Source of the DNA: Spongilla lacustris
Taxonomy: Eukaryota; Porifera; Demospongiae; Spongillida; Spongillidae
Length of the DNA stretch: 64,000 nt
NCBI GenBank assembly: GCA_949361645.1
Contig: OX442436.1
Location: 1,649,179-1,713,178 of the forward strand
Reading direction: 5' to 3'
The notes below the pieces were generated by a model. That model saw nothing but the letters and a program-made list of their open reading frames with translations. It ran no database searches and was not told where the DNA came from. This document shows, one piece after another, positions 3,001-51,463 of this stretch; position 1 is the stretch's first letter, and each line of letters opens with the position of its first letter. Both the position numbers and the translations under genes were made by a program.

Positions 3001-4589
3001 AAATGTCATAAAAGTAACATGTGGAATATACAACTGCATGTAAATTGCACACGTAGGCACAGTCCATAAAGGCAACAATATTATGCATCACACCTTCCCA
3101 AGTGAAGTTAGCAGACCCCACACTGTCAGCAAAGTCACCAGCCTCCTCACTACCAGTGTAACCCACACATGAAGGGGAACCATTTGTAGAGTATGGGCAT
3201 TATTATGGGGGCTCCATTGACGGCTGGCAGTGAACGGTTTGATAACACTACATGTGGAAGGGCTGGTGGCTCCACTGGTTGTGCAGCGCTTTTGACTGGA
3301 CTTGCAGTGTGAGGTTACTAAGTTCAATTGCAGCTTGGGAGTTAATGGTTCCATTGACTTGCAATGAGGAAGGCTGGTAGTTGTACTGTGTGGTGATGGT
3401 CCCATTAGCCCCCTCTTTCAGTGAAGGACAGGTAGTGGGGGGGTGAGGGTGGGCGCTGTGGAGGCTGCTAAGGAATAAGTCCACTTGCTGTGAGGGCTAA
3501 ACGTTCCACTGGTTCCATTGGTAGTGTTTGAAGGGGGCATGTGTGATTCCATTGGTACATGTGTATACGTGCACATGTCGCCTGAAATTGCTGCATGGGG
3601 CTACTGACTCAATTTACAGTGTGAGGGCTGCCTTCTCCACTGGCATTAAGTGGGGGCCACATTGACACTCTGGTTGTATGACAGCTGGTGCTCCCTTGCT
3701 GGCAGTGTGGGGGTCAGGTTTTGCAGTATTGAGTTCACTTGCAGTATGGGGGTTAATGGTTGGTTCCAAAGGTAGTGTGTGATTGCAGTGAGGCGGAGTG
3801 GTAGTTCTATGGCCCCCATTGGCTCATGGACAGCTGACGCAACTTGCAGTGAAGGACACGTAGTGAGCAGAGGGGGGCTGAGGGGGGGGGGAGGGCTGGC
3901 ACCAGTGTGTGGTGGGCCTGTTAAGTCCACTTGCATTGAGGTTCAACTTGTAGTGACGGCATGTGTTCTTGGTACATGTTCCCTGACTAATGAAGAGGGT
4001 TGGTGGTTGTACTGTCCCATTGGCTGATTGGCCCCTCTTTCATTGTACATGTAGGACAGGTAGTAGCGGGGGTGGGGGGGGGGTGGGGGGGGCTGTGGGG
4101 ACTGCTATGTATTAACTATGAGGGCTTAAAGTTCCACTTGCTCTGTTGTAGTGTTTGAAGAGGGCATGTGTGGTTTTCTTTTCCCACTCAAGTACATTTA
4201 CATGTACCCCTGAAATTTTTGGGGTTGCTGAATCCACTTGCAGTGCGAGGGCTGGTTTCTCCACTGGCATTATTCTGGGGGCTCGATTAACCACTGGTTG
4301 TGTGGCAGCTGGTACTTCCTTGCTGGGCTCCATCGGTGAGAGGGCTCCACTCATGTGGCCTGCCGTCTGGACTTGCAGTGTGTACTGGTAGAGGGTCTAG
4401 TGGCTCTATTTGAAGTGAGCAGAGAGGGGCTGGTGATTGTACTGTGTGGGGCTGGCCCTATTGGCCCTTGTTTGTGTGGGGGCTGCTGACTCAACTTGGG
4501 GTGGCATCTTCACTGACTTTGTGGAGGCTACCCCATTGGCCCTGGGTAGCTGAGGGTGTTCTGTAAGAATGGTTCCATGGGCTGCTGGC
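1..4589. repeat. Foldback minisatellite block identical to 33414-38002
   Basis: Low-complexity DNA built from diverged words such as CCAGTGGA, CCCTCACACTGCAAGTGGA and CCACACAGTACAACTACCAG up to about 3150. From about 3190 the same words run as reverse complements. It corresponds to 33414-38002 at a constant offset of 33413: every open frame I compared matches residue for residue, and the long C runs have equal length. It therefore holds the inner left stem (1-1871), the loop (1872-3351) and the inner right stem (3352-4589) of the giant foldback at 30998-41078. It stops at a scaffold gap. The open frames inside (up to 139 codons) are by-products of a stop-poor repeat, with no codon structure or domain, and I do not call genes here. 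Confidence 0.9.
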
Positions 4590-15640: not shown

Positions 15641-15641
15641 G

Positions 15642-25785: not shown

Positions 25786-25879
25786 AGCACTATGGTTACC
25801 TTGGCAGGTGTGCATTTGTGGCATCTATAACAACAAGGTCGAGGCGAGAAACACTACTCTAATCTAATGAATGGGTCAT

Positions 25880-28872: not shown

Positions 28873-30155
28873 CCCATCTATCTATGATGACTCGCATGCA
28901 ATGCACAATTATTTACTCGTGTTGTGTAAAGTTTATTTGCCAAAAGCAACACATGAGCAAGACATTGTATTGTTGTATAAGATGCTTAAACATCGGAGAG
29001 AGCAACCTTTATGAACGCTGTGAACCAAGCACACTAGATGTTCAAAATTTCATTTAGGCAGATATGGACTGTAGTTTATTAACCTATAATCTACTCTAAA
29101 CTAAATAAATTGATATGTATTCGTCAGTTGATTGTTTTTTGGGAATAGCTAAATAAGAAGTGCTGTATCACCACAGATTGCTTCTTTAAAGTACATCGGA
29201 GCTCATTTTGACATCTCTGAAATATCAACTGAAAGTGATATGACACTGAAATCAGGGACCTTATCCAATGATCATGAATACACTAGCCAAAAAGAATGAT
29301 GGTGTTAATTATCAGGATAAAATACTGGTGCCGTTATAACCAGTTACTGTGGGCTTGAACTTTCAATGGGTCCAATTATGAGCAGTCCTACTTGTACATA
29401 TTATCAAATTTAGTACATATTATTAATTCAAGCCAATACAGGGATAACAGTAACCAAACGTACACATGCACCAAACACAAAAAAATACCAGGGCTACCCA
29501 TTAAATATGAGCCATTAACCATCTAAAGTTGCTTCCAACTTTTGTTTTGGTTACGTAGTACCATTCATTTTTTGTATTTGAAAAATTGCAATTTAATAAT
29601 TGATGAATCTTATGTACAAATCCATGACTATAGCTTAAATTATAAATGACCACAAACAAATACCGGAAAGTTTGCAGTGTACCAACTAATTAAAAAAATT
29701 AAAATGGGCCTCAACTTACATGAAATCCAATTTCATGGACCCAGTGTTAAAAATGTATAACTTTACATCCTTTTGAGATCTTATATCCCTTTTTCTGTGT
29801 TACAGCACTTCGGAAACATCCTGTAACTCACTTGTACCCGCAACACATTTTAACTCATTCCACACTTCCGCGCAGAGTATCGTCACTGCAGAACCCAAGA
29901 CCACCACTGCAAATTTACCTGCGGGGCCGGCGGTATATACCACTGCTAATAGATGCATATAGTTTGTGTAATCAATCAATCAACCAATCAATCAGTCACA
30001 ATTTTCATTTTAATGCGTACAGTAATTGAGTAATGCAACATAAATGTACAAGACCAAGTATGACCTATTTATTTTAGTGCTAAATGTAGTTCTCATGCAA
30101 CACTTTGATGTGAGTCCATTTGCAGAACTCAAGTACCTAGAAGATATATATATAT
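28873..30155. other. Intergenic, no supported gene
   Basis: AT-rich DNA without domains or splice-flanked frames that I can support. Frames of 65-67 codons are probably accidental. It ends in a short TA run next to the mini-foldback. Confidence 0.5.
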
Positions 30156-30975
30156 GGGAAAGTTTACGAGAAAAGGGACCTAGCGTGTTATAAAAAAGTA
30201 AAATAAAAATGCATTACGTTTGATTTGCTATAACTTCCGAACAGTTAACGCTATCAACTTTGTATTTTCAACACTTCATACTGCACCATTTCTCTATGGT
30301 AAAATACATTTTGAAGTCTTGCACTTGCTCCATGTCAGTATTGCAACGTTCGATACCCCACTGGGTTCAAACCCGCCATAACTTTCGGTACGAGTAATCA
30401 ATTCGCTTCAAATTCGGTTTGTAGGTAGAGAGGTCCTATACCTATCGATTTGTTCTGTTCGTTAATTTTTATGCCATCCGTTACGGAGATACAGTTGAAC
30501 AAACTACGTGCACATTTTCCCGCTTGATTAGCGCCAATGTTATAATCCCCGCCTCCCCATACATTGAGCGGAACGCAATTTGCCCAAATCATTGGCGCGA
30601 ATCGAGCGCGAAAATGGGCACGTAGTTTGTTCAACTGTATCTCCGTAATGGATGGCATAAAAATTAACGAACAGAACAAATCGATAGGTATAGGACCTCT
30701 CTACCTACAAACTGAATTTGAAGCGAATTGATTACTCCTACCGAAAGTTATGGCGGGTTTGAACCCAGTGGGGTATCGAACGTTGCAATACTGACACGGA
30801 GCAAGTGCAAGACTCCAAAATGTATTTTACCATAGAGAAATGGTGCAGTATGAAGTGTTGAAAATAGGAAGTTGATAGCGTTAACTGTTCGGAAGTTATA
30901 GCAAATCAAACGTAATGCATTTTTATTATACTTTTTTATAATACACGCTAGGTCCCTTTTCTCGTAAACTTTCCC
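30156..30975. mobile_element. Mini-foldback element A1 (0.82 kb palindrome)
   Basis: Starts GGGAAAGTTTACGAGAAAAG and ends with its reverse complement. The arms pair almost perfectly over about 385 bases around a loop of about 50 bases (roughly 30540-30592). TA runs flank both ends. Subterminal sequence (CTTCATACTGCACCATTTCT, ATTGCAACGTTCGATACC, TTTGTAGGTAGAGAGGTCCT) is clearly homologous to the ends of the giant foldbacks but diverged. The 93-codon frame inside is a by-product. Probably a non-autonomous relative of the giant elements. Confidence 0.9.
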
Positions 30976-31520
30976 ATATATATATATATATATATATGGA
31001 ACGTTCTATGAGATTTTGATGCTTGTGAATTTTATATATATAGCATCCAATTCAAAGCGCTATATCTTCAAAAGGGTTTGCACTATTGACTTCCTATTTT
31101 CAGCACTTCATACTACACCATTTCTCTATGCTAAAATATATTTTGGGGTCTTGCACTTACTCCGTGCCAGGATTGCAACGTCCGATACCACACCGGGTTC
31201 AAACCCGACATAACTTTAGGTAGGAGTAATCAAATCGCTTCAAATTCGGTTTGTAGGTAGAGAGGTCCTATACCTATTGATTTGTTCTGTTCGTTAATTT
31301 TCATACAAACCGTTACGGAGAAACAGCTGTGCAAAGTAAGTACACGTTTCCCGCTCGAATCGCGCCTTTATATGTACACGGAACAGTTTCCATTCTCCGG
31401 AGCGCATGAATATTCAACTATTCCTATAGGGCGTGATAACCACACCTATAAGGTCACCAAACAAACGGGCGGCTGAATTGTAGTGCTTGTTACGGTTGTT
31501 TTTCGGTGTAGATAAACGAT

Positions 31521-31707
31521 ATGGTGACGTATAACACGAGTGAAGGCGAGCTCGTCGAGTCACTGAATCAGTCGGCGGATGAGTTCGAACTGTACGAATA
31601 CGACGATCGATATTCAAGCTCGATACATTGGACGAGGATGGAGAGATTGAGAAAAGTAGCGATGGCGGTCGTACCACTGACGTTGGTGGTTGTATTAGTG
31701 ATAGGGA
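31521..31707 (+). CDS. Membrane-anchor first exon, left stem of B1
   Basis: ATG-initiated frame: acidic Ser/Glu-rich head (SEGELVESLNQSADEFELYE), basic RMERLRK, then a hydrophobic segment KVAMAVVPLTLVVVLVIGS of about 18 residues. This is a signal-anchor (type II) layout, with positive charge on the cytoplasmic side. A GTGAGC donor follows at 31708, exactly where the minisatellite begins. I read it as a 5' exon captured from a host gene and cut off inside its first intron. Nearly identical copies: minus 40565-40379, plus 41622-41808, minus 49127-48910 (disrupted). The parent gene is not recognised, and expression from the element is unproven. Confidence 0.5.
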
Positions 31708-31769
31708 GTGAGCAGCCCCTGAATTACCAAAAGAGCCACCAGCCCCACCCCCACATAGCCAGGGGCTAA

Positions 31770-34700
31770 TGGGGCTAGGCCCTTCACTACAAGTTCGCTC
31801 AGCAGCCCTGGGGCCAAAGAGGCCATCCCCACACAGCAGAACCACAAGCCCCCTCACTGCAAGTGCACACTATATACCTTTGGAACCATTATGCCTCATG
31901 CTGCAATTTAAATTAATGGCCTCACATTCCAAATAATGGAGCCATCAAGTGGAATTAACAGGCCCCATAATTCCAGCAAGGGAGCCACCAGCTAACCTGG
32001 CCAATGGAGCTAACATCCACAATGCCAGTGGAGACACCAGCCCTCTCGCAGATAGATCATCAGACACCCACACTGCCAGCAGGGATGTGGCCCCCACAAT
32101 AATGCCAGTGGAGATGCCAGCCCTCAGGCTGCAAATGGAATCAGCATCCCCAACAATTTCAGGGGAGCAATGAACTACATGTACCAACAACACGTGATGA
32201 CCTCACTACTAGATCAATCATTAACCCTCACTCCGCAAGTGGTCTTAACAGGCTCCACACATTGGGACCAACCCCCCCCCCCCCCCCCACTATCTTTCTT
32301 TCAATACAAGTTGAGTCAACTGGGATCCCCCACACAGTAGAACCACCAGCCCCCTCACCGCAAGCTCATGAACAATACCAGTGGAACCTGTAAAGTCTAC
32401 ACTGCAACTGAACTTAATAAATAAAGCCTCACACTGCAGCCAGCAGCCCATGGAACCATTCTTACAGAACACCCTCAGCTACCCAGGGCCAATGGGGTAG
32501 CCTCCACAAAGTCAGTGAAGATGCCACCCCAAGTTGAGTCAGCAGCCCCCACACAAACTAGGGCCAATAGGGCCAGCCCCACACAGTACAACCACCAGCC
32601 CCTCTCTGCTCACTTCAAATAGAGCCACTAGACCCTCTACCAGTACACACTGCAAGTCCAGACGGCAGGCCACATGAGTGGAGCCCTCTCACCGATGGAG
32701 CCCAGCAAGGAAGTACCAGCTGCCACACAACCAGTGGTTAATCGAGCCCCCAGAATAATGCCAGTGGAGAAACCAGCCCTCGCACTGCAAGTGGATTCAG
32801 CAACCCCAAAAATTTCAGGGGTACATGTAAATGTACTTGAGGGGGAAAAGAAAACCACACATGCCCTCTTCAAACACTACAACAGAACAAGTGGAACTTT
32901 AAGCCCTCATAGTTAATACATAGCAGTCCCCACAGCCCCCCTACCCCCCCCCCCCCCCCCCCCCCCCGCTACTACCTGTCCTACATGTACAATGAAAGAG
33001 GGGCCAATCAGCCAATGGGACAGTACAACCACCAACCCTCTTCATTAGTCAGGGAACATGTACCAAGAACACATGCCGTCACTACAAGTTGAACCTCAAT
33101 GCAAGTGGACTTAACAGGCCCACCACACACTGGTGCCAGCCCTCGCCCCTCCTCCCCCCCCCTCAGCCCCCCTCTGCTCACTACGTGTCCTTCACTGCAA
33201 GTTGCATCAGCTGTCCATGAGCCAATGGGGGCCATAGAACTACCACTCCGCCTCACTGCAATCACACACTACCTTTGGAACCAACCATTAACCCCCATAC
33301 TGCAAGTGAACTCAATACTGCAAAACCTGACCCCCACACTGCCAGCAAGGGAGCACCAGCTGTCACACAACCAGAGTGTCAATGTGGCCCCCACTTAATG
33401 CCAGTGGAGAAGGCAGCCCTCACACTGGAAATGGAGTCAGTAGCCCCAACAATTTCAGGGGACATGTGCATGTACGCACATGTACCAATGGAATAACACA
33501 TGTCCCACCAATGGAACCATGCAGTGGAACTTTTAGCCCTCACAATAAGTGGACTTATTACTTAGCAGCCCCCACAACCTGTCTTTCACTGAAAGAGGGG
33601 GCTAATGGGACCATCACCACACAGTACAACTACCAGCCTTCCTCATTGCAAGCCAATGGAACCTCTGCTCAAACATTGGAGCTACCAGTCTTCTCACAAA
33701 TAGAGCTATCATACCCCCACACTGCTAGCAGAAATGTGGCCCGCACAATAATGCCAATGGAGATGCCAGCCCTCAGGCTGCAAATGGAATCAGCATCCCC
33801 AACAATTTCAGGGGAGCAATGAACTACATGTACCAACAACACGTGATGACCTCACTACCAGATCAATCATTAACCCTCACTCCACAAGTGGCCTTAAAAG
33901 GCTCCACACATTGGGACCAACCCCCCCCCCCCCCCCCACTATCTTTCTTTCAATACAAGTTGAGTCAACTGGGATCCCCCACACAGTAGAACCACCAGCC
34001 CCCTCACCGCAAGCTCATGAACAATACCAGTGGAACCTGTAAAGTCTACACTGCAACTGAACTTAATAAATAAAGCCTCACACTGCAGCCAACAGCCCAT
34101 GGAACCATTCTTACAAAACACCCTCAGCTACCCAGGGCCAATGGGGTAGCCTCCACAAAGTCAGTGAAGATGCCACCCCAAGTTGAGTCAGCAGCCCCCA
34201 CACAAACAAGGGCCAATAGGGCCAGCCCCACACAGTACAATCACCAGCCCCTCTCTGCTCACTTCAAATAGAGCCACTAGACCCTCTACCAGTACACACA
34301 CTGCAAGTCCAGACAGCAAGCCACACCAGTTGAGTCCTCTCACCGATGGAGCCCAGCAAGGAAGTACCAGCTGCCACACAACCAGTGGTTAATCGAGCCC
34401 CCAGAATAATGCCAGTGGAGAAACCAGCCCTCGCACTGCAAGTGGATTCAGCAACCCCAAAAATTTCAGGGGTACATGTAAATGTACTTGAGGGGGAAAA
34501 GAAAACTACACATGCCCTCTTCAAACACTACAACAGAACAAGTGGAACTTTAAGCCCTCATAGTTAATATGTAGCAGTCCCCACAGCCCTCCCCCCTACT
34601 AACAATGAAAGAGGGGCCAATCAGCCAATGGGACAGTACAACCACCAACCCTCTTCATTGGTCAGGGGACATATACCATGAACACATGCCGTCACAACCA

Positions 34701-35284
34701 GTTGAACCTCAATGCAAGTGGACTTAACAGACCCACCACACACTGGTGCCAGCCCTCCCCCCCCCCTCAGCCCCCCTCTGCTCACTACGTGTCCTTCACT
34801 GCAAGTTGCGTCAGCTGTCCATGAGCCAATGGGGGCCATAGATCTACCACTCCGCCTCACTGTAATCACACACTACCTTTGGAACCAACCATTAACCCCC
34901 ATACTGCAAGTGAACTCAATACTGCAAAACCTGACCCCCACACTGCCAGCAAGGGAGCACCAGCTGTCATACAACCAGAGTGTCAATGTGGCCCCCACTT
35001 AATGCCAGTGGAGAAGGCAGCCCTCACACTGTAAATGGAGTCAGTAGCCCCATGCAACAATTTCAGTGGACATGTGCATGTACCAATGGAATCACACATG
35101 TCTCCTTCAAACACTACCAGTGGAATGTTTAGCCCTCACAGCAAGTGGACTTATTCCTTAGCAGCCTCCACAGCGCCCACCCCCCCCCCCCCCCCCCACT
35201 ACCTGTCCTTTACTGAAAGAGGGGGTTAATGGGACCATCCCCACACAGTACAACTACCAGCCTTCCTCATTGCAAGCCAATGGA
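31770..35284. repeat. Minisatellite higher-order array, left stem of B1
   Basis: Repeats of CCAGTGGA, CCCTCACACTGCAAGTGGA, CCACACAGTACAACCACCAG and related words. A higher-order period of 1649 bases is seen by aligning 32173 with 33822 (both AATTTCAGGGGAGCAATGAA). C runs up to 24 bases occur at 32274-32288, 32947-32967 and elsewhere. Open frames (74-148 codons) arise from the stop-poor repeat and are not called as genes. Confidence 0.85.
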
Positions 35285-36764
35285 ACCTCTGCTCAAACAT
35301 TGGAGCTACCAGCCTTCTCACAAATAGAGTTATCATACCCCCACACTGCTAGCAGAAATGTGGCCCCCACAATAATGCCAGTGGAGATGCCAGCCATCAC
35401 ACAGCAAATGGAGTCGGCATCCCCACCAATTTTAGGGGAGCCACTAACTACATGTATCGATAACACATGCCCTCACTACCAGATGAGCCATTAATCCTCA
35501 CTCCACAAGTGGACCTAGCAGGTACCACGTACTGAGGCCAGCCCACGCCCCCGCTACCTTTCTATTGCTGCATATAAGTTGAGTCAGCATTTGAGGGGCC
35601 ACCACCAGCCCCCTCACCTCAAGCTCGTGAACAATACCAGTGGAACCTGTAAAGTGTTCCCTACAACTGAACTTAATAGCCTCACATGTCCATGCCCATG
35701 CACAACTTATGGAACCATTCCAGAGCCGATGGGGTAGCCTCCACAAAGCCAGTACCCAAGTTGAGTCAGCAGCCTCCACACAAACAGGAGCCTGTAGGGC
35801 CAGCTCCGCACAGTACAACAACCAGCCCCTCTCTGCTCACTTCAAATGGAGCCACTAGGCACACTGCAAGTCCAGTCAGCCATCAGCTGCCACATAACCA
35901 GGCGTCACCCCACAATAATGCCAGCCCTCTGAACTACATGTACCAATGGACCCACACATTCCCTGCTCCTAACACAACACATGGAACCAGTGGAACCATT
36001 AGCCCTCACTGCAATTGGACTTATATTAGCACTGGGGCCAGCTCCTGTCCTTTACAATCAACGGTCCAGAGCCCCCCCAAACTGCATATGGACTTGGCAC
36101 CCTGACAGTTTTAGACAAGCCATCATCTACCAGTGGAGCTACTAGCCCCCACACTATGTGTAAATTACCAGTCCCTATTGGAGCCACTGTATACCTGTTT
36201 TCTGTGCACACAATTTTATCTGAGGTGAAGTGAAGCCTTGTTATTGGTGGGTGAATATCATTACCTGCCCTATCAGTACTGATTTAGGGTGGTAGTTGGT
36301 TTATATAGGCAAGCAAGGCATACAAGAAGGTTTGAGTTGTACATCTAAAATGTACATGTACCCTCTTGCTGGAAACTAGTGCTTTATGTACATGGAGCAA
36401 TAAGTACCATTTTAAATGTCATAAAAGTAACATGTGGAATATACAACTGCATGTAAATTGCACACGTAGGCACAGTCCATAAAGGCAACAATATTATGCA
36501 TCACACCTTCCCAAGTGAAGTTAGCAGACCCCACACTGTCAGCAAAGTCACCAGCCTCCTCACTACCAGTGTAACCCACACATGAAGGGGAACCATTTGT
36601 AGAGTATGGGCATTATTATGGGGGCTCCATTGACGGCTGGCAGTGAACGGTTTGATAACACTACATGTGGAAGGGCTGGTGGCTCCACTGGTTGTGCAGC
36701 GCTTTTGACTGGACTTGCAGTGTGAGGTTACTAAGTTCAATTGCAGCTTGGGAGTTAATGGTTC
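35285..36764. other. Loop of giant foldback B1
   Basis: Mostly the same repeat words in plus orientation up to about 36190, then about 300 bases of unique AT-richer DNA (36220-36510, containing ATGTACATGTACC), a short further plus-oriented piece, and a switch to reverse orientation near 36590. The same loop in the same orientation occurs at 1872-3351 and 43755-45264, so B1 and B2 are direct copies rather than mirror images. Confidence 0.75.
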
Positions 36765-39700
36765 CATTGACTTGCAATGAGGAAGGCTGGTAGTTGTACT
36801 GTGTGGTGATGGTCCCATTAGCCCCCTCTTTCAGTGAAGGACAGGTAGTGGGGGGGTGAGGGTGGGCGCTGTGGAGGCTGCTAAGGAATAAGTCCACTTG
36901 CTGTGAGGGCTAAACGTTCCACTGGTTCCATTGGTAGTGTTTGAAGGGGGCATGTGTGATTCCATTGGTACATGTGTATACGTGCACATGTCGCCTGAAA
37001 TTGCTGCATGGGGCTACTGACTCAATTTACAGTGTGAGGGCTGCCTTCTCCACTGGCATTAAGTGGGGGCCACATTGACACTCTGGTTGTATGACAGCTG
37101 GTGCTCCCTTGCTGGCAGTGTGGGGGTCAGGTTTTGCAGTATTGAGTTCACTTGCAGTATGGGGGTTAATGGTTGGTTCCAAAGGTAGTGTGTGATTGCA
37201 GTGAGGCGGAGTGGTAGTTCTATGGCCCCCATTGGCTCATGGACAGCTGACGCAACTTGCAGTGAAGGACACGTAGTGAGCAGAGGGGGGCTGAGGGGGG
37301 GGGGAGGGCTGGCACCAGTGTGTGGTGGGCCTGTTAAGTCCACTTGCATTGAGGTTCAACTTGTAGTGACGGCATGTGTTCTTGGTACATGTTCCCTGAC
37401 TAATGAAGAGGGTTGGTGGTTGTACTGTCCCATTGGCTGATTGGCCCCTCTTTCATTGTACATGTAGGACAGGTAGTAGCGGGGGTGGGGGGGGGGTGGG
37501 GGGGGCTGTGGGGACTGCTATGTATTAACTATGAGGGCTTAAAGTTCCACTTGCTCTGTTGTAGTGTTTGAAGAGGGCATGTGTGGTTTTCTTTTCCCAC
37601 TCAAGTACATTTACATGTACCCCTGAAATTTTTGGGGTTGCTGAATCCACTTGCAGTGCGAGGGCTGGTTTCTCCACTGGCATTATTCTGGGGGCTCGAT
37701 TAACCACTGGTTGTGTGGCAGCTGGTACTTCCTTGCTGGGCTCCATCGGTGAGAGGGCTCCACTCATGTGGCCTGCCGTCTGGACTTGCAGTGTGTACTG
37801 GTAGAGGGTCTAGTGGCTCTATTTGAAGTGAGCAGAGAGGGGCTGGTGATTGTACTGTGTGGGGCTGGCCCTATTGGCCCTTGTTTGTGTGGGGGCTGCT
37901 GACTCAACTTGGGGTGGCATCTTCACTGACTTTGTGGAGGCTACCCCATTGGCCCTGGGTAGCTGAGGGTGTTCTGTAAGAATGGTTCCATGGGCTGCTG
38001 GCTGCAGTGTGAGGCTTTATTTATTAAGTTCAGTTGCAGTGTAGACTTTACAGGTTCCACTGGTATTGTTCATGAGCTTGCGGTGAGGGGGCTGGTGGTT
38101 CTACTGTGTGGGGGATCCCAGTTGACTCAACTTGTATTGAAAGAAAGATAGTGAAGATAGTGGGGGGGGGGGGGGGGGGTTGGTCCCAATGTGTGGAGCC
38201 TGTTAAGACCACTTGCGGAGTGAGGGTTAATGATTGATCTGGTAGTGAGGTCATCACGTGTTGTTGGTACATGTAGTTCATTGCTCCCCTGAAATTGTTG
38301 GGGATGCTGATTCCATTTGCAGCCTGAGGGCTGGCATCTCCATTGGCATTATTGTGCGGGCCACATTTCTGCTAGCAGTGTGGGGGTATGATAGCTCTAT
38401 TTGTGAGAAGACTGGTAGCTCCAATGTTTGAGCAGAGGTTCCATTGGCTTGCAATGAGGAAGGCTGGTAGTTGTACTGTGTGGTGATGGTCCCATTAGCC
38501 CCCTCTTTCAGTGAAAGACAGGTTGTGGGGGCTGCTAAGTAATAAGTCCACTTATTGTGAGGGCTAAAAGTTCCACTGCATGGTTCCATTGGTGGGACAT
38601 GTGTTATTCCATTGGTACATGTGCGTACATGCACATGTCCCCTGAAATTGTTGGGGCTACTGACTCCATTTCCAGTGTGAGGGCTGCCTTCTCCACTGGC
38701 ATTAAGTGGGGGCCACATTGACACTCTGGTTGTGTGACAGCTGGTGCTCCCTTGCTGGCAGTGTGGGGGTCAGGTTTTGCAGTATTGAGTTCACTTGCAG
38801 TATGGGGGTTAATGGTTGGTTCCAAAGGTAGTGTGTGATTGCAGTGAGGCGGAGTGGTAGTTCTATGGCCCCCATTGGCTCATGGACAGCTGACGCAACT
38901 TGCAGTGAAGGACACGTAGTGAGCAGAGGGGGGCTGAGGGGGGGGGGAGGAGGGGCGAGGGCTGGCACCAGTGTGTGGTGGGCCTGTTAAGTCCACTTGC
39001 ATTGAGGTTCAACTTGTAGTGACGGCATGTGTTCTTGGTACATGTTCCCTGACTAATGAAGAGGGTTGGTGGTTGTACTGTCCCATTGGCTGATTGGCCC
39101 CTCTTTCATTGTACATGTAGGACAGGTAGTAGCGGGGGGGGGGGGGGGGGGGGCTGTGGGGACTGCTGCGTATTAACTATGAGGGCTTAAAGTTCCACTT
39201 GTTCTGTTGTAGTGTTTGAAGAGGGCATGTGTGGTTTTCTTTTCCCCCTCAAGTACATTTACATGTACCCCTGAAATTTTTGGGGTTGCTGAATCCACTT
39301 GCAGTGCGAGGGCTGGTTTCTCCACTGGCATTATTCTGGGGGCTCGATTAACCACTGGTTGTGTGGCAGCTGGTACGTCCTTGCTGGGCTCCATCAGTGA
39401 GAGGGCTCCACTCATGTGGCCTGCCGTCTGGACTTGCAGTGTGTACTGGTAGAGGGTCTAGTGGCTCTATTTGAAGTGAGCAGAGAGGGGCTGGTGGTTG
39501 TACTGTGTGGGGCTGGCCCTTGTTTGTGTGGGGGCTGCTGACTCAACTTGGGGTGGCATCTTCACTGACTTTGTGGAGGCTACCCCATTGGCCCTGGGTA
39601 GCTGAGGGTGTTCTGTAAGAATGGTTCCATGGGCTGCTGGCTGCAGTGTGAGGCTTTATTTATTAAGTTCAGTTGCAGTGTAGACTTTACAGGTTCCACT

Positions 39701-40390
39701 GGTATTGTTCATGAGCTTGGGGTGAGGGGGCTGGCGGTTCTACTGTGTGGGGATCCCAGCTGAATCAACTTGCAATGAAAGAAAGGTAGTGGGGGGGGGG
39801 GGGGGGGGGGGGGTTTGGTCCCAGTGTGTGGAGCCTGTTAAGACCACTTGCAGAGTGAGGGTTAATGATTGATCTGGTAGTGAGGTCATCACGTGTTGTT
39901 GGTACCTGTAGTTCATAGCTCCCCTGAAATTGTTTGGGATGCTGATTCCATTTGCAGCCTGAGGGCTGGCATCTCTACTGGCATTATTGTGGGGGCCACA
40001 TCCCTGCTGGCAGTGTGGGTGTCTGATGATCTATCTGCGAGAGGGCTGGTGTCTCCACTGGCATTGTGGATGTTAGCTCCATTGGCCAGGTTAGCTGGTG
40101 GCTCCCTTGCTGGAATTATGGGGCCTGTTAATTCCACTTGATGGCTCCACTATTTGGAATGTGAGGCCCTTAATTTAAATTGCAGCATGAGGCATAATGG
40201 TTCCAAAGGTATATAGTGTGCACTTGCAGTGAGGGGGCTTGTGGTTCTGCTGTGTGGGGATGGCCTCTTTGGCCCCGGGGCTGCTGAGCGAACTTGTAGT
40301 GAAGGGCCTAGCCCCATTAGCCCCTGGCTATGTGGGGGTGGGGCTGGTGGCTCTTTTGGTAATTCAGGGGCTGCTCACTCCCTATCACTA
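36765..40390. repeat. Minisatellite higher-order array, right stem of B1
   Basis: Reverse complement of 31770-35284 with a period of about 1635 (38278 to 39913). Long G runs replace the C runs (39136-39152, 39791-39813) and their lengths differ from the left stem, as expected of homopolymer slippage. A 148-codon frame at minus 38278-38724 has the same translation as plus 33376-33822, showing near-identity of the stems. Confidence 0.85.
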
Positions 40391-40565
40391 ATACAACCAC
40401 CAACGTCAGTGGTACGACCGCCATCGCTACTTTTCTCAATCTCTCCATCCTCGTCCAATGTATCGAGCTTGAATATCGATCGTCGTATTCGTACAGTTCG
40501 AACTCATCCGCCGACTGATTCAGTGACTCGACGAGCTCGCCTTCACTCGTGTTATACGTCACCAT
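40379..40565 (-). CDS. Membrane-anchor first exon, right stem of B1
   Basis: Mirror copy of 31521-31707 with the same translation and the same GTGAGC donor. Upstream, a 10-base deletion (relative to the other stems) lies near 40593, in the AACCGTACAATTCAG junction, outside the coding part. Confidence 0.5.
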
Positions 40566-41621
40566 ATCGTTTATCTACACCGAAAAACAACCGTACAATT
40601 CAGCCGCCCGTTTGTTTGGTGACCTTATAGGTGTGGTTATCACGCCCTATAGGAATAGTTGAATATTCATGCGCTCCGGAGAATGGAAACTGTTCCGTGT
40701 ACATATAAAGGCGCGATTCGAGCGGGAAACGTGTACTTACTTTGCACAGCTGTTTCTCCGTAACGGTTTGTATGAAAATTAACGAACAGAACAAATCAAT
40801 AGGTATAGGACCTCTCTACCTACAAACCGAATTTGAAGCGATTTGATTACTCCTACCTAAAGTTATGTCGGGTTTGAACCCGGTGTGGTATCGGACGTTG
40901 CAATCCTGGCACGGAGTAAGTGCAAGACCCCAAAATATATTTTAGCATAGAGAAATGGTGTAGTATGAAGTGCTGAAAATAGGAAGTCAATAGTGCAAAC
41001 CCTTTTGAAGATATAGCGCTTTGAATTGGATGCTATATATATAAAATTCACAAGCATCAAAATCTCATAGAACGTTCCATATATATATATATATAATTGG
41101 AACGTTCTATGAGATTTTGATGCTTGTGAATTTTATATATATAGCATCCAATTCAAAGCGCTATATCTTCAAAATGGTTTGCACTATTGACTTCCTATTT
41201 TCAGCACTTCATACTACACCATTTCTCTATGCCAAAATATATTTTGGGGTCTTGCACTTACTCCGTGCCAGGATTGCAACGTCCGATACCACACCGGGTT
41301 CAAACCCGACATAACTTTAGGTAGGAGTAATCAAATCGCTTCAAAATCGGTTTGTAGGTAGAGAGGTCCTATACCTATTGATTTGTTCTGTTCGTTAATT
41401 TTCATACAAACCGTTACGGAGAAACAGCTGTGCAAAGTAAGTACACGTTTCCCGCTCGAATCGCGCCTTTATATGTACACGGAACAGCTTCCATTCTCCG
41501 GAGCGCATGAATATTCAACTATTCCTATAGGGCGTGATAACCACACCTATAAGGTCACCAAACAAACGGGCGGCTGAATTGTAGTGCTTGTTACGGTTGT
41601 TTTTCGGTGTAGATAAACGAT

Positions 41622-41808
41622 ATGGTGACGTATAACACGAGTGAAGGCGAGCTCGTCGAGTCACTGAATCAGTCGGCGGATGAGTTCGAACTGTACGAAT
41701 ACGACGATCGATATTCAAGCTCGATACATTGGACGAGGATGGAGAGATTGAGAAAAGTAGCGATGGCGGTCGTACCACTGACGTTGGTGGTTGTATTAGT
41801 GATAGGGA
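41622..41808 (+). CDS. Membrane-anchor first exon, left stem of B2
   Basis: Same translation as 31521-31707, followed by the same GTGAGC donor at the start of the minisatellite. Conservation among stems may reflect gene conversion between hairpin arms rather than selection. Confidence 0.5.
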
Positions 41809-41874
41809 GTGAGCAGCCCCTGAATTACCAAAAGAGCCACCAGCCCCACCCCCACATAGCCAGGGGCTAATGGG

Positions 41875-43754
41875 GCTAGGCCCTTCACTACAAGTTCGCT
41901 CAGCAGCCCTGGGGCCAAAGAGGCCATCCCCACACAGCAGAACCACAAGCCCCCTCACTGCAAGTGCACACTATATACCTTTGGAATCATTATGCCTCAT
42001 GCTGCAATTTAAATTAATGGCCTCACATTCCAAATAGTGGAGCCATCAAGTGGAATTAACAGGCCCCATAATTCCAGCAAGGGAGCCACCAGCTAACCTG
42101 GCCAATGGAGCTAACATCCACAATGCCAGTGGAGACACCAGCCCTCTCGCAGATAGATCATCAGACACCCACACTGCCAGCAGGGATGTGGCCCCCACAA
42201 TAATGCCAGTGGAGATGCCAGCCCTCAGGCTGCAAATGGAATCAGCATCCGCAACAATTTCAGGGGAGCAATGAACTACATGTACCAACAACACGTGATG
42301 ACCTCACTACCAGATCAATCATTAACCCTCACTCCGCAAGTGGTCTTAACAGGCTCCACACATTGGGACCAACCCCCCCCCCCCCCCCCCCCACTATCTT
42401 CACTATATTTCTTTCAATACAAGTTGAGTCAACTGGGATCCCCCACACAGTAGAACCACCAGCCCGCTCACCGCAAGCTCATGAACAATACCAGTGGAAC
42501 CTGTAAAGTCTACACTGCAACTGAACTTCATAAATAAAGCCTCACACTGCAGCCAACAGCCCATGGAACCATTCTTACAGAACACCCTCAGCTACCCAGG
42601 GCCAATGGGGTAGCCTCCACAAAGTCAGTGAAGATGCCACCCCAAGTTGAGTCAGCAGCCCCCACACAAACAAGGGCCAATAGGGCCAGCCCCACACAGT
42701 ACAATCACCAGCCCCTCTCTGCTAACTTCAAATAGAGCCACTACACCCTCTAACAGTACACACACTGCAAGTCCAGACAGCAAGCCACACCAGTTGAGTC
42801 CTCTCACCGATGGAGTCCAGCAAGGAAGTACCAGCTGCCACACAACCAGTGGTTAATCGAGCCCCCAGAATAATGCCAGTGGAGAAACCAGCCCTCGCAC
42901 TGCAAGTGGATTCAGCAACCCCAAAAATTTCAGGGGTACATGTAAATGTACTTGAGGGGGAAAAGAAAACTACACATGCCCTCTTCAAACACTACAACAG
43001 AACAAGTGGAACTTTAAGCCCTTATAGTTAATATGTAGCAGTCCCCACAGCCCTCCCCCCTACTAACAATGAAAGAGGGGCCAATCAGCCAATGGGACAG
43101 TACAACCACCAACCCTCTTCATTGGTCAGGGGACATATACCATGAACACATGCCGTCACTACCAGTTGAACCTCAATGCAAGTGGACTTAACAGACCCAC
43201 CACACACTGGTGCCAGCCCTCGCCCCTCCTCCCCCCCCCCTCAGCCCCCCTCTGCTCACTACGTGTCCTTCACTGCAAGTTGCGTCAGCTGTCCATGAGC
43301 CAATGGGGGCCATAGAACTACCACTCCGCCTCACTGCAATCACACACTACCTTTGGAACCAACCATTAACCCCCATACTGCAAGTGAACTCAATACTGCA
43401 AAACCTGACCCCCACACTGCCAGCAAGGGAGCACCAGCTGTCATACAACCAGAGTGTCAATGTGGCCCCCACTTAATGCCAGTGGAGAAGGCAGCCCTCA
43501 CACTGTAAATTGAGTCAGTAGCCCCATGCAACAATTTCAGTGGACATGTGCATGTACCAATGGAATCACACATGCCTCCTTCAAACACTACCAGTGGAAC
43601 ATTTAGCCCTCACAGCAAGTGGACTTATTCCTTAGCAGCCTCCACAGCGCCCACCCCCCCCCCCCCACTACCTGTCCTTTACTGAAAGAGGGGGTTAATG
43701 GGACCATCCCCACACAGTACAACTACCAGCCTTCCTCATTGCAAGCCAATGGAA
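41875..43754. repeat. Minisatellite array, left stem of B2 (one unit fewer)
   Basis: Plus-orientation array as in B1 but with a single copy of the unit that contains the CAAGTGGACTTAACAGACCC and GAAAAGAAAACTACACATGC landmarks. A C run of about 22 bases occurs near 42375-42392. Confidence 0.8.
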
Positions 43755-44540
43755 CCTCTGCTCAAACATTGGAGCTACCAGCCTTCTCACAAATAGAGTT
43801 ATCATACCCCCACACTGCTAGCAGAAATGTGGCCCCCACAATAATGCCAGTGGAGATGCCAGCCATCACACAGCAAATGGAGTCGGCATCCCCACCAATT
43901 TTAGGGGAGCCACTAACTACATGTATCGATAACACATGCCCTCACTACCAGATGAGCCATTAATCCTCACTCCACAAGTGGACCTAGCAGGTACCACGCA
44001 CTGAGGCCAGCCCACGCCCCCGCTACCTTTCTATTGCTGCATATAAGTTGAGTCAGCATTTGAGGGGCCAACCACCAGCCCCCTCACCTCAAGCTCGTGA
44101 ACAATACCAGTGGAACCTGTAAAGTGTTCCCTACAACTGAACTTAATAGCCTCACATGTCCATGCCCATGCACAACTTATGGAACCATTCCAGAGCCGAT
44201 GGGGTAGCCTCCACAAAGGCCAGTGCCCAAGTTGAGTCAGCAGCCTCCACACAAACAGGAGCCTGTAGGGCCAGCTCCGCACAGTACAACCACCAGCCCC
44301 TCTCTGCTGACTTCAAATGGAGCCACTAGGCACACTGCAAGTCCAGTCAGCCATCAGCTGCCACATAACCAGGCGTCACCCCACAATAATGCCAGCCCTC
44401 TGAACTACATGTACCAATGGACCCACACATTCCCTGCTCCTAACACAACACATGGAACCAGTGGAACCATTAGCCCTCACTGCAATTGGACTTATATTAG
44501 CACTGGGGCCAGCTCCTGTCCTTTACAATCACGTCCAGAG

Positions 44541-44583
<43 letters not shown>

Positions 44584-45264
44584 ACTGCATATGGACTTGG
44601 CACCCCGACAGTTTTAGGCAAGCCATCATCTACCAGTGGAGCTACTAGCCCCCACACTATGTGTAAATTACCAGTCCCTATTGGAGCCACTGTATACCTG
44701 TTTTCTGTGCACACAATTTTATCTGAGGTGAAGTGAAGCCTTGTTATTGGAGGGTGAATATCATTACCTGCCCTATCAGTACTAATTTAGGGTGGTAGTT
44801 GGTTTATATAGGCAAGCAAGGCATACAAGGTTTGAGTTGTACATCTAAAATGTACATGTACCCTCTTGCTGGAAACTAGTGCTTTATGTACATGGAGCAA
44901 TAAGTACCATTTTAAATGTCATAAAAGTAACATGTGGAATATACAACTGCATGTAAATTGCACACGTAGGCACAGTCCATAAAGGCAACAATATTATGCA
45001 TCACACCTTCCCAAGTGAAGTTAGCAGACCCCACACTGTCAGCAAAGTCACCAGCCTCCTCACTACCAGTGTAATCCACACATGAAGGGGAACCATTTGT
45101 AGAGTATGGGCATTATTATGGGGGCTCCATTGACGGCTGGCAGTGAACGGTTTGATAACACCACATGTGGAAGGGCTGGTGGCTCCACTGGTTGTGCAGC
45201 GCTTTTGACTGGACTTGCAGTGTGAGGTTACTAAGTTCAATTGCAGCTTGGGAGTTAATGGTTC
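43755..45264. other. Loop of giant foldback B2
   Basis: Same organisation as the B1 loop. It contains an expanded pure C run of about 41 bases at 44541-44581, where B1 (36069-36075) and the first contig have seven C. The unique central part is at about 44720-45010. Confidence 0.8.
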
Positions 45265-48200
45265 CATTGACTTGCAATGAGGAAGGCTGGTAGTTGTACT
45301 GTGTGGTGATGGTTCCATTAGCCCCCTCTTTCAGTGAAGGACAGGTAGTGGGGGGGTGAGGGTGGGCGCTGTGGAGGCTGCTAAGGAATAAGTCCACTTG
45401 CTGTGAGGGCTAAACGTTCCACTGGTTCCATTGGTAGTGTTTGAAGGGGGCATGTGTGATTCCATTGGTACATGTGTATACGTGCACATGTCGCCTGAAA
45501 TTGCTGCATGGGGCTACTGACTCAATTTACAGTGTGAGGGCTGCCTTCTCCACTGGCATTAAGTGGGGGCCACATTGACACTCTGGTTGTGTGACAGCTG
45601 GTGCTCCCTTGCTGGCAGTGTGGGGGTCAGGTTTTGCAGTATTGAGTTCACTTGCAGTATGGGGGTTAATGGTTGGTTCCAAAGGTAGTGTGTGATTGCA
45701 GTGAGGCGGAGTGGTAGTTCTATGGCCCCCATTGGCTCATGGACAGCTGACGCAACTTGCAGTGAAGGACACGTAGTGAGCAGAGGGGGGCTAAGGGGGG
45801 GGGGGGCGGGAGGAGGGGCGAGGGCTGGCACCAGTGTGTGGTGGGCCTGTTAAGTCCACTTGCATTGAGGTTCAACTTGTAGTGACAGCATGTGTTCTTG
45901 GTACATGTTCCCTGACTAATGAAGAGGGTTGGTGGTTGTACTGTCCCATTGGCTGATTGGCCCCTCTTTCATTGTACATGTAGGACAGGTAGTAGCAGGG
46001 GGGGGGGGGGGGGGGCTGTGGGACTGCTAAGTATTAACTATGAGGGCTTAAAGTTCCACTTGTTCTGTTGTAGTGTTTGAAGAGGGCATGTGTGGTTTTC
46101 TTTTCCCCCTCAAGTACATTTACATGTACCCCTGAAATTTTTGGGGTTGCTGAATCCACTTGCAGTGCGAGGGCTGGTTTCTCCACTGGCATTATTCTGG
46201 GGGCTCGATTAACCACTGGTTGTGTGGCAGCTGGTACTTCCTTGCTGGGCTCCATCGGTGAGAGGGCTCCACTCATGTGGCCTGCCGTCTGGACTTGCAG
46301 TGTGTACTGGTAGAGGGTCTAGTGGCTCTATTTGAAGTGAGCAGAGAGGGGCTGGTGGTTGTACTGTGTGGGGCTGGCCCTATTGGCCCTTGTTTGTGTG
46401 GGGGCTGCTGACTCAACTTGGGGTGGCATCTTCACTGACTTTGTGGAGGCTACCCCATTGGCCCTGGGTAGCTGAGGGTGTTCTGTAAGAATGGTTCCAT
46501 GGGCTGCTGGCTGCAGTGTGAGGCTTTATTTATTAAGTTCAGTTGCAGTGTAGACTTTACAGGTTCCACTGGTATTGTTCATGAGCTTGCGGTGAGGGGG
46601 CTGGTGGTTCTACTGTGTGGGGGATCCCAGTTGACTCAACTTGTATTGAAAGAAAGATAGTGAAGATAGTGGGGGGGGGGGGGGGGGGGGGGGGGTTGGT
46701 CCCAATGTGTGGAGCCTGTTAAGACCACTTGCAGAGTGAGGGTTAATGATTGATCTGGTAGTGAGGTCATCACGTGTTGTTGGTACATGTAGTTCATTGC
46801 TCCCCTGAAATTGTTGGGGATGCTGATTCCATTTGCAGCCTGAGGGCTGGCATCTCCATTGGCATTATTGTGCGGGCCACATTTCTGCTAGCAGTGTGGG
46901 GGTATGATAGCTCTATTTGTGAGAAGACTGGTAGCTCCAATGTTTGAGCAGAGGTTCCATTGGCTTGCAATGAGGAAGGCTGGTAGTTGTACTGTGTGGT
47001 GATGGTCCCATTAGCCCCCTCTTTCAGTGAAAGACAGGTTGTGGGGGCTGCTAAGTAATAAGTCCACTTATTGTGAGGGCTAAAAGTTCCACTGCATGGT
47101 TCCATTGGTGGGACATGTGTTATTCCATTGGTACATGTGCGTACATGCACATGTCCCCTGAAATTGTTGGGGCTACTGACTCCATTTCCAGTGTGAGGGC
47201 TGCCTTCTCCACTGGCATTAAGTGGGGGCCACATTGACACTCTGGTTGTGTGACAGCTGGTGCTCCCTTGCTGGCAGTGTGGGGGTCAGGTTTTGCAGTA
47301 TTGAGTTCACTTGCAGTATGGGGGTTAATGGTTGGTTCCAAAGGTAGTGTGTGATTGCAGTGAGGCGGAGTGGTAGTTCTATGGGCCCCATTGGCTCATG
47401 GACAGCTGACGCAACTTGCAGTGAAGGACACGTAGTGAGCAGAGGGGGGCTGAGGGGGGGGGAGGAGGGGCGAGGGCTGGCACCAGTGTGTGGTGGGCCT
47501 GTTAAGTCCACTTGCATTGAGGTTCAACTTGTAGTGACGGCATGTGTTCTTGGTACATGTTCCCTGACTAATGAAGAGGGTTGGTGGTTGTACTGTCCCA
47601 TTGGCTGATTGGCCCCTCTTTCATTGTACATGTAGGACAGGTAGTAGCGGGGGTGGGCGGGGGTGGGGGGGTGGGGGGGGCTGTGGGGACTGCTACGTAT
47701 TAACTATGAGGGCTTAAAGTTCCACTTGTTCTGTTGTAGTGTTTGAAGAGGGCATGTGTGGTTTTCTTTTCCCCCTCAAGTACATTTACATGTACCCCTG
47801 AAATTTTTGGGGTTGCTGAATCCACTTGCAGTGCGAGGGCTGGTTTCTCCACTGGCATTATTCTGGGGGCTCGATTAACCACTGGTTGTGTGGCAGCTGG
47901 TACTTCCTTGCTGGGCTCCATCGGTGAGAGGGCTCCACTCATGTGGCCTGCCGTCTGGACTTGCAGTGTGTACTGGTAGAGGGTCTAGTGGCTCTATTTG
48001 AAGTGAGCAGAGAGGGGCTGGTGATTGTACTGTGTGGGGCTGGCCCTATTGGCCCTTGTTTGTGTGGGGGCTGCTGACTCAACTTGGGGTGGCATCTTCA
48101 CTGACTTTGTGGAGGCTACCCCATTGGCCCTGGGTAGCTGAGGGTGTTCTGTAAGAATGGCTCCATGGGCTGCTGGCTGCAGTGTGAGGCTTTATTTATT

Positions 48201-48910
48201 AAGTTCAGTTGCAGTGTAGACTTTACAGGTTCCACTGGTATTGTTCATGAGCTTGGGGTGAGGGGGCTGGCGGTTCTACTGTGTGGGGATCCCAGCTGAC
48301 TCAACTTGCATTGAAAGAAAGGTAGTGGGGGGGGGAGGGGGGGGGGTTTGGTCCCAGTGTGTGGAGCCTGTTAAGACCACTTGCGGAGTGAGGGTTAATG
48401 ATTGATCTGGTAGTGTGGTCATCACGTGTTGTTGGTACCTGTAGTTCATAGCTCCCCTGAAATTGTTGGGGATGCTGATTCCATTTGCAGCCTGAGGGCT
48501 GGCATCTCCACTGGCATTATTGTGGGGGCCACATCCCTGCTGGCAGTGTGGGTGTCTGATGATCTATCTGCGAGAGGGCTGGTGTCTCCACTGGCATTGT
48601 GGATGTTAGCTCCATAGGCCAGGTTAGCTGGTGGCTCCCTTGCTGGAATTATGGGGCCTGTTAATTCCACTTGATGGCTCCACTATTTGGAATGTGAGGC
48701 CATTAATTTAAATTGCAGCATGAGGCATAATGGTTCCAAAGGTATATAGTGTGCACTTGCAGTTAGGGGGCTTGTGGTTCTGCTGTGTGGGGATGGCCTC
48801 TTTGGCCCCAGGGCTGCTGAGCGAACTTGTAGTGAAGGGCCTAGCCCCATTAGCCCCTGGCTATGTGGGGGTGGGGCTGGTGGCTCTTTTGGTAATTCAG
48901 GGGCTGCTCA
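45265..48910. repeat. Minisatellite array, right stem of B2
   Basis: Reverse-orientation array with two higher-order units (46794 to 48446, period 1652). Many landmark frames have translations identical to the B1 right stem. G runs occur near 46671-46695 and 48326-48345. Confidence 0.85.
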
Positions 48911-49127
48911 CTCCCTATCACTAATACAACCACCAACGTCAGTGGTACGACCGCCATCGCTACTTTTCTCAATCTCTCCATCCTCGTCCAATGTATCGAG
49001 CTTGAATATCGATCGTCGTATTCGTACAGTCAGAGATAATATATTATCTCTGGTACAGTTCGAACTCATCCGCCGACTGATTCAGTGACTCGACGAGCTC
49101 GCCTTCACTCGTGTTATACGTCACCAT
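48910..49127 (-). pseudogene. Membrane-anchor exon, right stem of B2, disrupted
   Basis: Fourth copy of the anchor exon. A 29-base insertion (49031-49059) after GTACAGT shifts the frame in the acidic head. The rest of the exon, including the hydrophobic segment and donor, is preserved. Confidence 0.6.
49024..49059. mobile_element. 22-bp perfect palindrome insertion with 7-bp target duplication
   Basis: GTACAGT, then the 22-base perfect palindrome at 49031-49052 (CAGAGATAAT inverted on itself), then GTACAGT again. The three other stems have a single GTACAGT and no palindrome, so the insertion is dated to after stem duplication. It looks like two 11-base transposon ends fused with nothing between, i.e. 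an extreme internal deletion or a repair product. Confidence 0.8.
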
Positions 49128-49666
49128 ATCGTTTATCTACACCGAAAAACAACCGTAACAAGCACTACAATTCAGCCGCCCGTTTGTTTGGTGACCTTAT
49201 AGGTGTAGTTATCACGCCCTATAGGAATAGTTGAATATTCATGCGCTCCGGAGAATGGAAACTGTTCCGTGTACATATAAAGGCGCGATTCGAGCGGGAA
49301 ACGTGTACTTACTTTGCACAGCTGTTTCTCCGTAACGGTTTGTATGAAAATTAACGAACAGAACAGATCGATAGGTATAGGACCTCTCTACCTACAAACC
49401 GATTTTGAAGCGATTTGATTACTCCTACCTAAAGTTATGTCGGGTTTGAACCCGGTGTGGTATCGGACGTTGCAATCCTGGCACGGAGTAAGTGCAAGAC
49501 CCCAAAATATATTTTGGCATAGAGAAATGGTGTAGTATGAAGTGCTGAAAATAGAAAGTCAATAGTGCAAACCCTTTTGAAGATATAGCGCTTTGAATTG
49601 GATGCTATATATATAAAATTCACAAGCATCAAAATCTCATAGAACGTTCCAATTATATATATAATT

Positions 49667-50488
49667 GGGAAAGTTTACGAGAAAAGGGACCTAGCGTGTA
49701 TTATAAAAAAGTATAATAAAAATGCATTACGTTTGATTTGCTATAACTTCCGAACAGTTAACGCTATCAACTTCCTATTTCCAATACTTCATACTGCACC
49801 ATTTCTCTATGGTAAAATACATTTTGGAGTCTTGCACTTGCTCCGTGTCAGTATTGCAACGTTCGATACCCCACTGGGTTCAAACCCGCCATAACTTTCG
49901 GTAGGAGTAATCAATTCGCTTCAAATTCGGTTTGTAGGTAGAGAGGTCCTATACCTATCGATTTGTTCTGTTCGTTGATTTTTATGCCATCCATTACGGA
50001 GATACAGTTGAACAAACTACTTGCCCATTTTCGCGCTCGATTCGCGCCAATGATTTGGGCAAATTGCGTTCCGCTCAATGTATGGGGAGGCGGGGATTAT
50101 AACATTGGCGCGAATCAAGCGGGAAAACGTGCACGTAGTTCGTTCAACTGTATCTCCGTAATGGATGGCATAAAAATCAACGAACAGAACAAATCGATAG
50201 GTATAGGACCTCTCTACCTACAAACCGAATTTGAAGCGAATTGATTACTCCTACCGACAGTTATGGCGGGTTTGAACCCAGTGGGGTATCGAACGTTGCA
50301 ATACTGACACGGAGCAAGTGCAAGACTCCAAAATGTATTTTACCATAGAGAAATGGTGCAGTATGAAGTATTGGAAATAGGAAGTTGATAGCGTTAACTG
50401 TTCGGAAGTTATAGCAAATCAAACGTAATGCATTTTTATTATACTTTTTTATAATACACGCTAGGTCCCTTTTCTCGTAAACTTTCCC
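49667..50488. mobile_element. Mini-foldback element A2 (0.82 kb palindrome)
   Basis: Same family and size as A1. The asymmetric loop (GGGAGGCGGGGATTATAACA) is in the opposite orientation to that of A1, so A1 and A2 mirror each other around the B1-B2 pair. Flanked by AATTATATATATAATT on the left and a TA run on the right. Confidence 0.9.
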
Positions 50489-50934
50489 ATATATATATAT
50501 ATACTTAGTTGATTTTCCTGACCTGTGAAATACCTTTATCATTGATTGGTGAAATTCTATGTATGATATGTATACTTTTTCTGCTATCCACATACATCAC
50601 TACTGTGAGTAGCCTGCATATTTGGCATGATTGTATGCATAAAACCTGTTGTAGAAATGATTTAAACATACAGTGGTGCGTGGCTTATATGTTAATTTTG
50701 GTTGCAGTTGCATGCTTAGTAAGATCTGTATAGTTCAGCAATCACAGATAGTGCAGTCATTCAATTCCATTCATTCAAAAGTACCGTTTTATGCTGCCGT
50801 ATTGACCGAATAAAAATATCATAAGTAATATAGTGTTGGAATACACATTTTTTCTCTTTCTAGAACAATTAAAATGACCACTTCAAAGTTCCATTTGGCC
50901 ACCAATACCAGCCTGCCTACAAGACTCAAAAAAT
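50489..50934. other. Intergenic, no supported gene
   Basis: TA run followed by AT-rich DNA. Two frames of about 75-110 codons cross the foldback border and are by-products. Confidence 0.5.
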
Positions 50935-51412: not shown

Positions 51413-51463
51413 AGCTAAATGCGTAGTCCAAGACCACCTCTACTCAAGCACAACTGGGCTTGT

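Follow-up and report, generated by a model that had tools for sequence, protein, structure and literature searches.

Two giant palindromic elements, B1 and B2, lie side by side in a 64,000-nucleotide stretch of the genome of the sponge Spongilla lacustris (assembly GCA_949361645.1, contig OX442436.1, positions 1,649,179 to 1,713,178 of the forward strand), hereafter called the window; positions below are those of the window unless a contig is named. We interpret them, with a probability of roughly 0.82, as non-autonomous copies of a foldback transposon that derives from a cut-and-paste ancestor encoding a DUF7869 transposase, that was probably moved in trans, and that forms chains by insertion into TA tracts.

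A first-pass annotation of the window had described two adjoining foldback elements with multi-kilobase stems, common termini and loops in the same orientation, and self-comparison of the window recovered both palindromes where it had placed them. B1 (30998..41078, + strand, 10,081 bp) consists of a left arm of 4290 bp (30998..35287, +), a short asymmetric middle (35288..36759, +) and a right arm of 4319 bp (36760..41078, -); the two arms pair over 4358 alignment columns with 96.1% identity and 107 gap columns. B2 (41099..49650, +, 8,552 bp) follows after a TA-rich spacer of 20 bp (41079..41098) and has its loop oriented as in B1, and GGAACGTTCTAT stands at the start and end of both elements. 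The arms of B2, paired at 41090-44329 and 46319-49659, are shorter (about 3.3 kb) and only 90.3% identical (3387 columns, 193 of them gaps), because the left arm lacks most of one 1.65 kb period. The description of the stem arms as near-identical therefore suits B1 and fits B2 less well. The higher-order period of 1.65 kb itself is real, with a best lag of 1649 bases: two periods follow one another in the left arm of B1 (32029..33663 and 33674..35287, both +), and an inner period in the right arm of B2 (45260..46939, -) is without its own partner in the left arm. Calling the stems minisatellites, however, does not hold in the strict sense, since Tandem Repeats Finder returned only poly-C or homopolymer runs and short units, the other small motifs being irregularly spaced, degenerate and mostly 60-85% alike in the repeat search. 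The middle of B1 (36100-36720) gave 41 match rows when the best 40 of 592 candidates were scored, with B1, B2 and a third copy, B0, included.

Both elements belong to a dispersed family. The first-pass annotation would have fallen had B1 and B2 lacked other genomic copies with their termini, but such copies exist. In the assembly searched (248.6 Mb, 51 contigs), the 32-base B terminus was found at 306 places with at most three mismatches and its reversed pattern at none, which excludes chance; the family has about 300 element ends. A variant terminus typical of an older subfamily, one base off the 32-base terminus, occurs at 113 exact places (control 0), and as the variants are one base apart, the two counts overlap. 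Merging the 100 places listed from each search gave at least 185 distinct ends, at least 46 closed pairs of plus and minus ends and at least seven end-to-end junctions, all of them lower bounds, most of the 306 places lying outside those listed. The seven junctions span 4-22 bp, and that between B1 and B2 is one of them. The closed pairs lie at different sites and recur at characteristic lengths: 10 measure 8.27-8.56 kb and 12 measure 10.05-10.21 kb, while 23 have other lengths between 7.4 and 15.3 kb and one is a miniature of 586 bp. Twelve copies (B1, B2 and ten others) and the miniature were compared end to end. In the outer 1 kb of the arms, seven young copies differ from one another by 0.8-1.2% on average, and young and old subfamilies by 4.8%; a divergence of about 1% among young copies may be taken as an indirect sign of transposition. 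Longer members considered as candidate autonomous copies, at C2:18844163 (15.3 kb) and C3:1035744 (13.8 kb), were rejected, as they carry inserts. The second contains an open reading frame (ORF) for a reverse transcriptase (L049 3743-5705; PF00078, E 1.3e-8), which we read as a nested insertion.

Each arm of B1 and B2 retains a remnant of a DUF7869 transposase gene. A tblastn search with P0052, a protein of the freshwater sponge Ephydatia muelleri, gave matches in all four arms for residues 1-30 and 33-57, separated by a change of frame. The matches lie at 31512..31687 (+) in the left arm of B1, where the frame changes between 31607 and 31622, at 40399..40574 (-) in its right arm and at 41613..41788 (+) in the left arm of B2, with 29.6 and 25.8 bits in all three; in the right arm of B2 (48932..49136, -) the scores are 24.6 and 25.8 bits, and some 29 bp of additional sequence are inserted, the region measuring 219 bp versus 190 in the other arms. 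The best score among 300 shuffles and a reversal was 24.6 bits, equal to the weakest match in the right arm of B2; the runner-up elsewhere in the window reached 20.4 bits. In the older subfamily, the match to P0052 runs in one frame with stops and scores up to 41.6 bits. With about 57 transposase codons and a frame change among them, the B elements are non-autonomous. What had been annotated as a captured exon is thus, as far as these alignments tell, the broken start of the ancestral transposon's own DUF7869 transposase gene.

Larger parts of such a gene are found next to some B copies, whose outward flanks contain related elements with open frames and with the termini of short palindromes, called P-type here. 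The neighbour in locus L006 has 310 codons, including MATTNDELVVYHSADEFEW; those in L019 and L045 start similarly, and a different stretch, present in L016, L020 and L026, is the C-terminal part of the same transposase. Full-length relatives have 891 residues (P0040). The L006 frame has 38 protein matches; the organism is named for two, E. muelleri in each case, and a further six, from eukprot, carry Em names. For P0004, a longer relative with 287 protein matches, Pfam DUF7869 stands on about 104 (counted by eye) of the 120 listed, among which the nearest named organism is again E. muelleri and one distant match is filed under a Desulfobacterales bin. The remnant in B occupies a place collinear with the gene of these DUF7869 (PF25273) elements. 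The transposase has a DDE/RNase H core and its fold resembles that of Mos1, yet a Pfam scan of ten relatives, several of them fragments, gave no mariner model; the same scan returned no THAP or P-element model and, at E <= 1, no MULE model, although a distant kinship with Mutator may exist. Three neighbour ORFs yielded one weak helix-turn-helix match in Pfam (E 0.2), and solved structures searched by sequence gave E 0.056 at best, for the L006 ORF. A literature search returned no paper on DUF7869 and none joining QNKN and transposase, and in titles and abstract openings no such family was described in a sponge. The neighbour of the copy at C2:7906530 (L017 1-1500) is taken up by a tandem repeat of quite another kind.

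Two other accounts of this coding piece were considered. The arms may have taken up part of a host gene for a membrane protein, its promoter and first exon, in the manner of Pack-type elements, with a product (MVTYN...VIGS) that has a hydrophobic end and is followed by a splice donor. A frame of 63 amino acids is indeed open in the young subfamily (55 of 150 matches scored, from 690 candidates, are 100% identical), and a donor-like GTGAGC, noted by eye, comes after it. However, when a single frame change is allowed for, this DNA matches the N-terminus of the DUF7869 transposase, at the point where the transposase-bearing neighbours begin theirs. Moreover, the frame is broken in all nine arms of the older subfamily examined, from five copies, yet the terminus of that subfamily stands at 113 exact places. 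Capture of a host exon with a membrane anchor is therefore very unlikely, and we dropped it, although the 150 scored matches were not inspected one by one for a host gene. Alternatively, the element may be moved by an unrelated transposase, for instance a Mutator-like one, the DUF7869 piece being a passenger. The outermost 85 or so bases of B are unlike the DUF7869-bearing neighbour (terminal bases compared: GGAACGTTC versus GGGACAGTTC), BLAST homology to it starting at base 86 of B, and the part of PMC4079207 drawn on here assigns most foldbacks to Mutator. We nevertheless judge this quite improbable: the sub-terminal part of the terminal inverted repeat (TIR; 86.6%) and the transposase start are collinear with the DUF7869 elements, and for two copies flanked by AATT on either side, only a 4-bp target-site duplication (TSD) fits. 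Descent from a DUF7869 transposon is the reading we retain.

The insertion sites bear on how the elements came to be joined. In the window, B1 and B2 are enclosed by two short palindromes, P-left (30156..30975, 820 bp, termini GGGAAAGTTTAC, 92.9% self-complementary) and P-right (49667..50488, 822 bp, 94.6% self-complementary), which adjoin B1 and B2, respectively, across TA tracts. They match the outer arm of B at about 85% over some 300 bases. The P-type terminus TATGGGAMAGTTYMC occurs at 2515 exact genome places (reversed control 6); among the best 40 of 3375 candidates scored for P-left, full-length matches are 97-100% identical. When 49 distinct outward flanks of B copies were classified, four led to another B (from three junctions), 19 to a P-type terminus and 23 to a TA tract followed by other DNA; three fitted no class. 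Ten TA tracts of at least 10 bases are present in the window, five at B or P junctions, four inside B arms and one elsewhere. Since these tracts are mainly at family ends, insertion beside a resident copy would be likely, to judge from this one window. For 19 copies both flanks were available. A 4-bp duplication fits 16 of them (14 ATAT and the two AATT copies mentioned above), although TA tracts fit any even length: 15 of the 19 are compatible with 2 bp, 13 with 6 bp, 11 with 8 bp and none with 9 bp. The copy at C2:2666319 fits 2 bp only, and that at C2:2049624, like the miniature, fits no duplication length. The 4-bp pattern also suggested the Sola superfamily, an idea that was not retained. 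The left flank and P-left are found again at C9 and C7, where B1 is missing; the evidence from empty sites is one-sided because a search with the right flank (50489-53500) gave no other full-length match, and an empty site clean on both sides did not turn up.

Some further observations concern these flanks and the P palindromes. Window positions 25500-30997 recur at C9:6829295-6834770 (100%) and C7:1104856-1110339 (99.6-100%), as far as the TA tract before B1, and represent a recent duplication or a large repeat ending where B1 starts. At C13:5414066-5416533, three P palindromes stand in a row with single-base gaps in BLAST coordinates. On C1, facing P-type ends are separated by 8-14 kb (C1:5373188 and 5381849, for instance, among 100 listed of the 2515), and possibly belong to giant or autonomous relatives.

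The question arises whether the two arms of an element evolve independently. In the seven young copies with complete outer arms, among the twelve compared end to end, left and right arms differ less within an element than from the opposite arms of other elements in six cases out of seven, both for bases 1-430 and for bases 430-1030, the copy at C4:10000621 going the opposite way; further inward this holds for four, five and three of the seven. The effect is small: for bases 1-430 the mean difference is 0.81% within elements, versus 0.87% between left arms, 1.20% between right arms and 1.06% between left and right arms. Of the informative sites over bases 1-1030, seven are found in both arms of an element, five on one side only and one otherwise; over bases 1030-2600, the corresponding numbers are 5, 42 and 16. 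In four copies of the old subfamily, arms differ by 1.2-2.3% within and 2.6-3.0% between copies. These patterns suggest that the inner arms evolve mostly apart, the element being copied whole. For the outer arms, there is a hint of arm-to-arm conversion, although it is based on small numbers and an assembly could be biased towards identical arms.

The third copy, B0, calls for caution. Its inner part occupies 1..4589 (+) of the window; it starts upstream, at C24:1646772, and ends at a gap of 200 N (4590-4789). Over 6,996 bp it shows no substitution relative to B1 and two gaps, of 10 and 1 columns, and is possibly a very recent duplication or an assembly fault; it was kept out of the evidence for the family. 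Dating B0 by sequence differences was dropped, the two gaps being the sole differences from B1. The 63-amino-acid frame lies 513 bases from the end in the left arm of B0 (C24:1646772) and in the right arm of B1 (C24:1690256), and 523 bases from it in the left arm of B1, so that a 10-base deletion is common to opposite arms.

Two rival accounts of the chain and of the palindromes remain to be weighed. B0, broken off at a gap and so close to B1, and the copy at C21:6517852, whose arms carry 0 substitutions from 430 to 2600, might lead one to regard the palindromes as assembly or sequencing artefacts, arising from hairpin reads or mis-joined haplotypes. B0 itself may be partly such an artefact. 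For the family as a whole this is the least credible of the alternatives, given 46 closed pairs whose sites and flanks differ and of which 22 fall into two narrow length classes, and given also the arm-specific differences and two subfamilies 4.8% apart. The P-B1-B2-P chain could also be a single composite that is moved or duplicated in one piece, or one that has grown by unequal recombination. The recurrence of end-to-end junctions (seven in the 185 listed ends) and the presence of an adjoining P-type end in 19 of 49 flanks would be in keeping with this. However, different copies have different neighbours (a second B, one of several P-type variants or a plain TA tract), and the presence of the left flank and P-left without B1 at C9 and C7 speaks against a composite unit, which we consider rather unlikely. 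We thus prefer separate insertions of copies of one foldback family.

The history we propose for this family would begin with a cut-and-paste transposon coding for a DUF7869 transposase. In one lineage, the core of the transposase would have been lost and the 5' end of the gene retained in each arm, while the interior turned into degenerate repeat DNA and the arms grew into very long inverted repeats. Copies were probably mobilised in trans by the transposase of intact relatives. Their targets would be TA tracts, which in this window are found mostly where family members end, and such insertions would give rise to end-to-end chains such as P-B1-B2-P. A wider proposal is more speculative, and we put it forward as doubtful: DUF7869 would be a little-described animal superfamily of cut-and-paste transposons that independently evolved some of the longest-armed foldbacks, in which targeting of TA tracts at one another's ends builds chains of palindromes and arm-to-arm copying keeps the outer arms alike.

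Inverted-repeat arms built of repeats are found in Drosophila FB and sea urchin TU, to which B is likened by description only. Judged against Tetris, Galileo and Tm1, the layout is that of a foldback family whose relatives include miniature and coding elements; the comparison draws on parts of the cited papers. Tetris, from Drosophila virilis, is likewise a non-autonomous foldback whose long TIRs contain flanking and internal tandem-repeat domains, and it shares TIR ends with the shorter element DAIBAM, which resembles a miniature inverted-repeat transposable element (MITE), (PMC4079207), much as B and the short P palindromes have a sub-terminal TIR in common. In the text drawn on, three structurally complete copies of Tetris are described, with TIRs of up to 1,735 bp, repeats of about 220 bp and TSDs of 8-10 bp, and no transposase was found (PMC4079207), which illustrates that foldbacks can be orphans. 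In contrast, B has arms of up to 4.3 kb, a 1.65 kb period, about 300 ends, TA-rich targets and, in the copies of the window, a transposase remnant in each arm. Galileo, a member of the P superfamily in Drosophila with a P-type transposase, has foldback-like TIRs reaching about 1.26 kb, in which direct repeats change arm length independently, as well as TIR-only copies and signs of sequence exchange among copies (PMC3573991), all of which recall B. The relatives of B, however, carry DUF7869, and the ten scanned gave no THAP or P model. The arms of B are more than twice as long as the longest TIRs given for Tetris and Galileo in these sources (PMC4079207, PMC3573991). Tm1 of Meloidogyne (Mutator/Phantom) similarly combines foldback, MITE-like and transposase-encoding members, but differs by its 9 bp TSDs, motifs of about 14 bp and Phantom-like transposase (PMC3169594). 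At inversion breakpoints of Atlantic cod, inverted-repeat elements are also amassed in tandem, but these are hAT-derived MITEs, not giant palindromes (PMC12368964).

Within this comparison, what sets B apart is the longer arms, the different type of transposase and an origin in a coding transposon that can still be seen in the arms. One genome contains the giant foldback together with its short palindromic relatives and with neighbours that carry transposase parts, so that one can follow how a coding transposon became a giant palindrome. The many natural palindromes of 8-10 kb in a single freshwater sponge also provide a set for studies of palindrome instability, arm-to-arm conversion and possible double-stranded RNA from the arms.

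Rfam returned 24 matches in the window, all below gathering scores (22 to microRNA families and two to rox2) and 20 of them over the B1/B2 junction; they were discarded as inverted-repeat artefacts. Other repeats are present away from the B elements. Near-identical direct repeats of 1.0-1.6 kb (99.2-99.8%) at 14774-25793 represent a local duplication. Dispersed repeats are found at 27146-28179 (about 1.03 kb, 85-91% identity at 35 of 40 scored places) and at 50877-51510 (about 0.63 kb, up to 94% identity elsewhere), and an inverted repeat of about 0.5 kb (89%), containing a 79-bp tandem unit, lies at 62590-63906.

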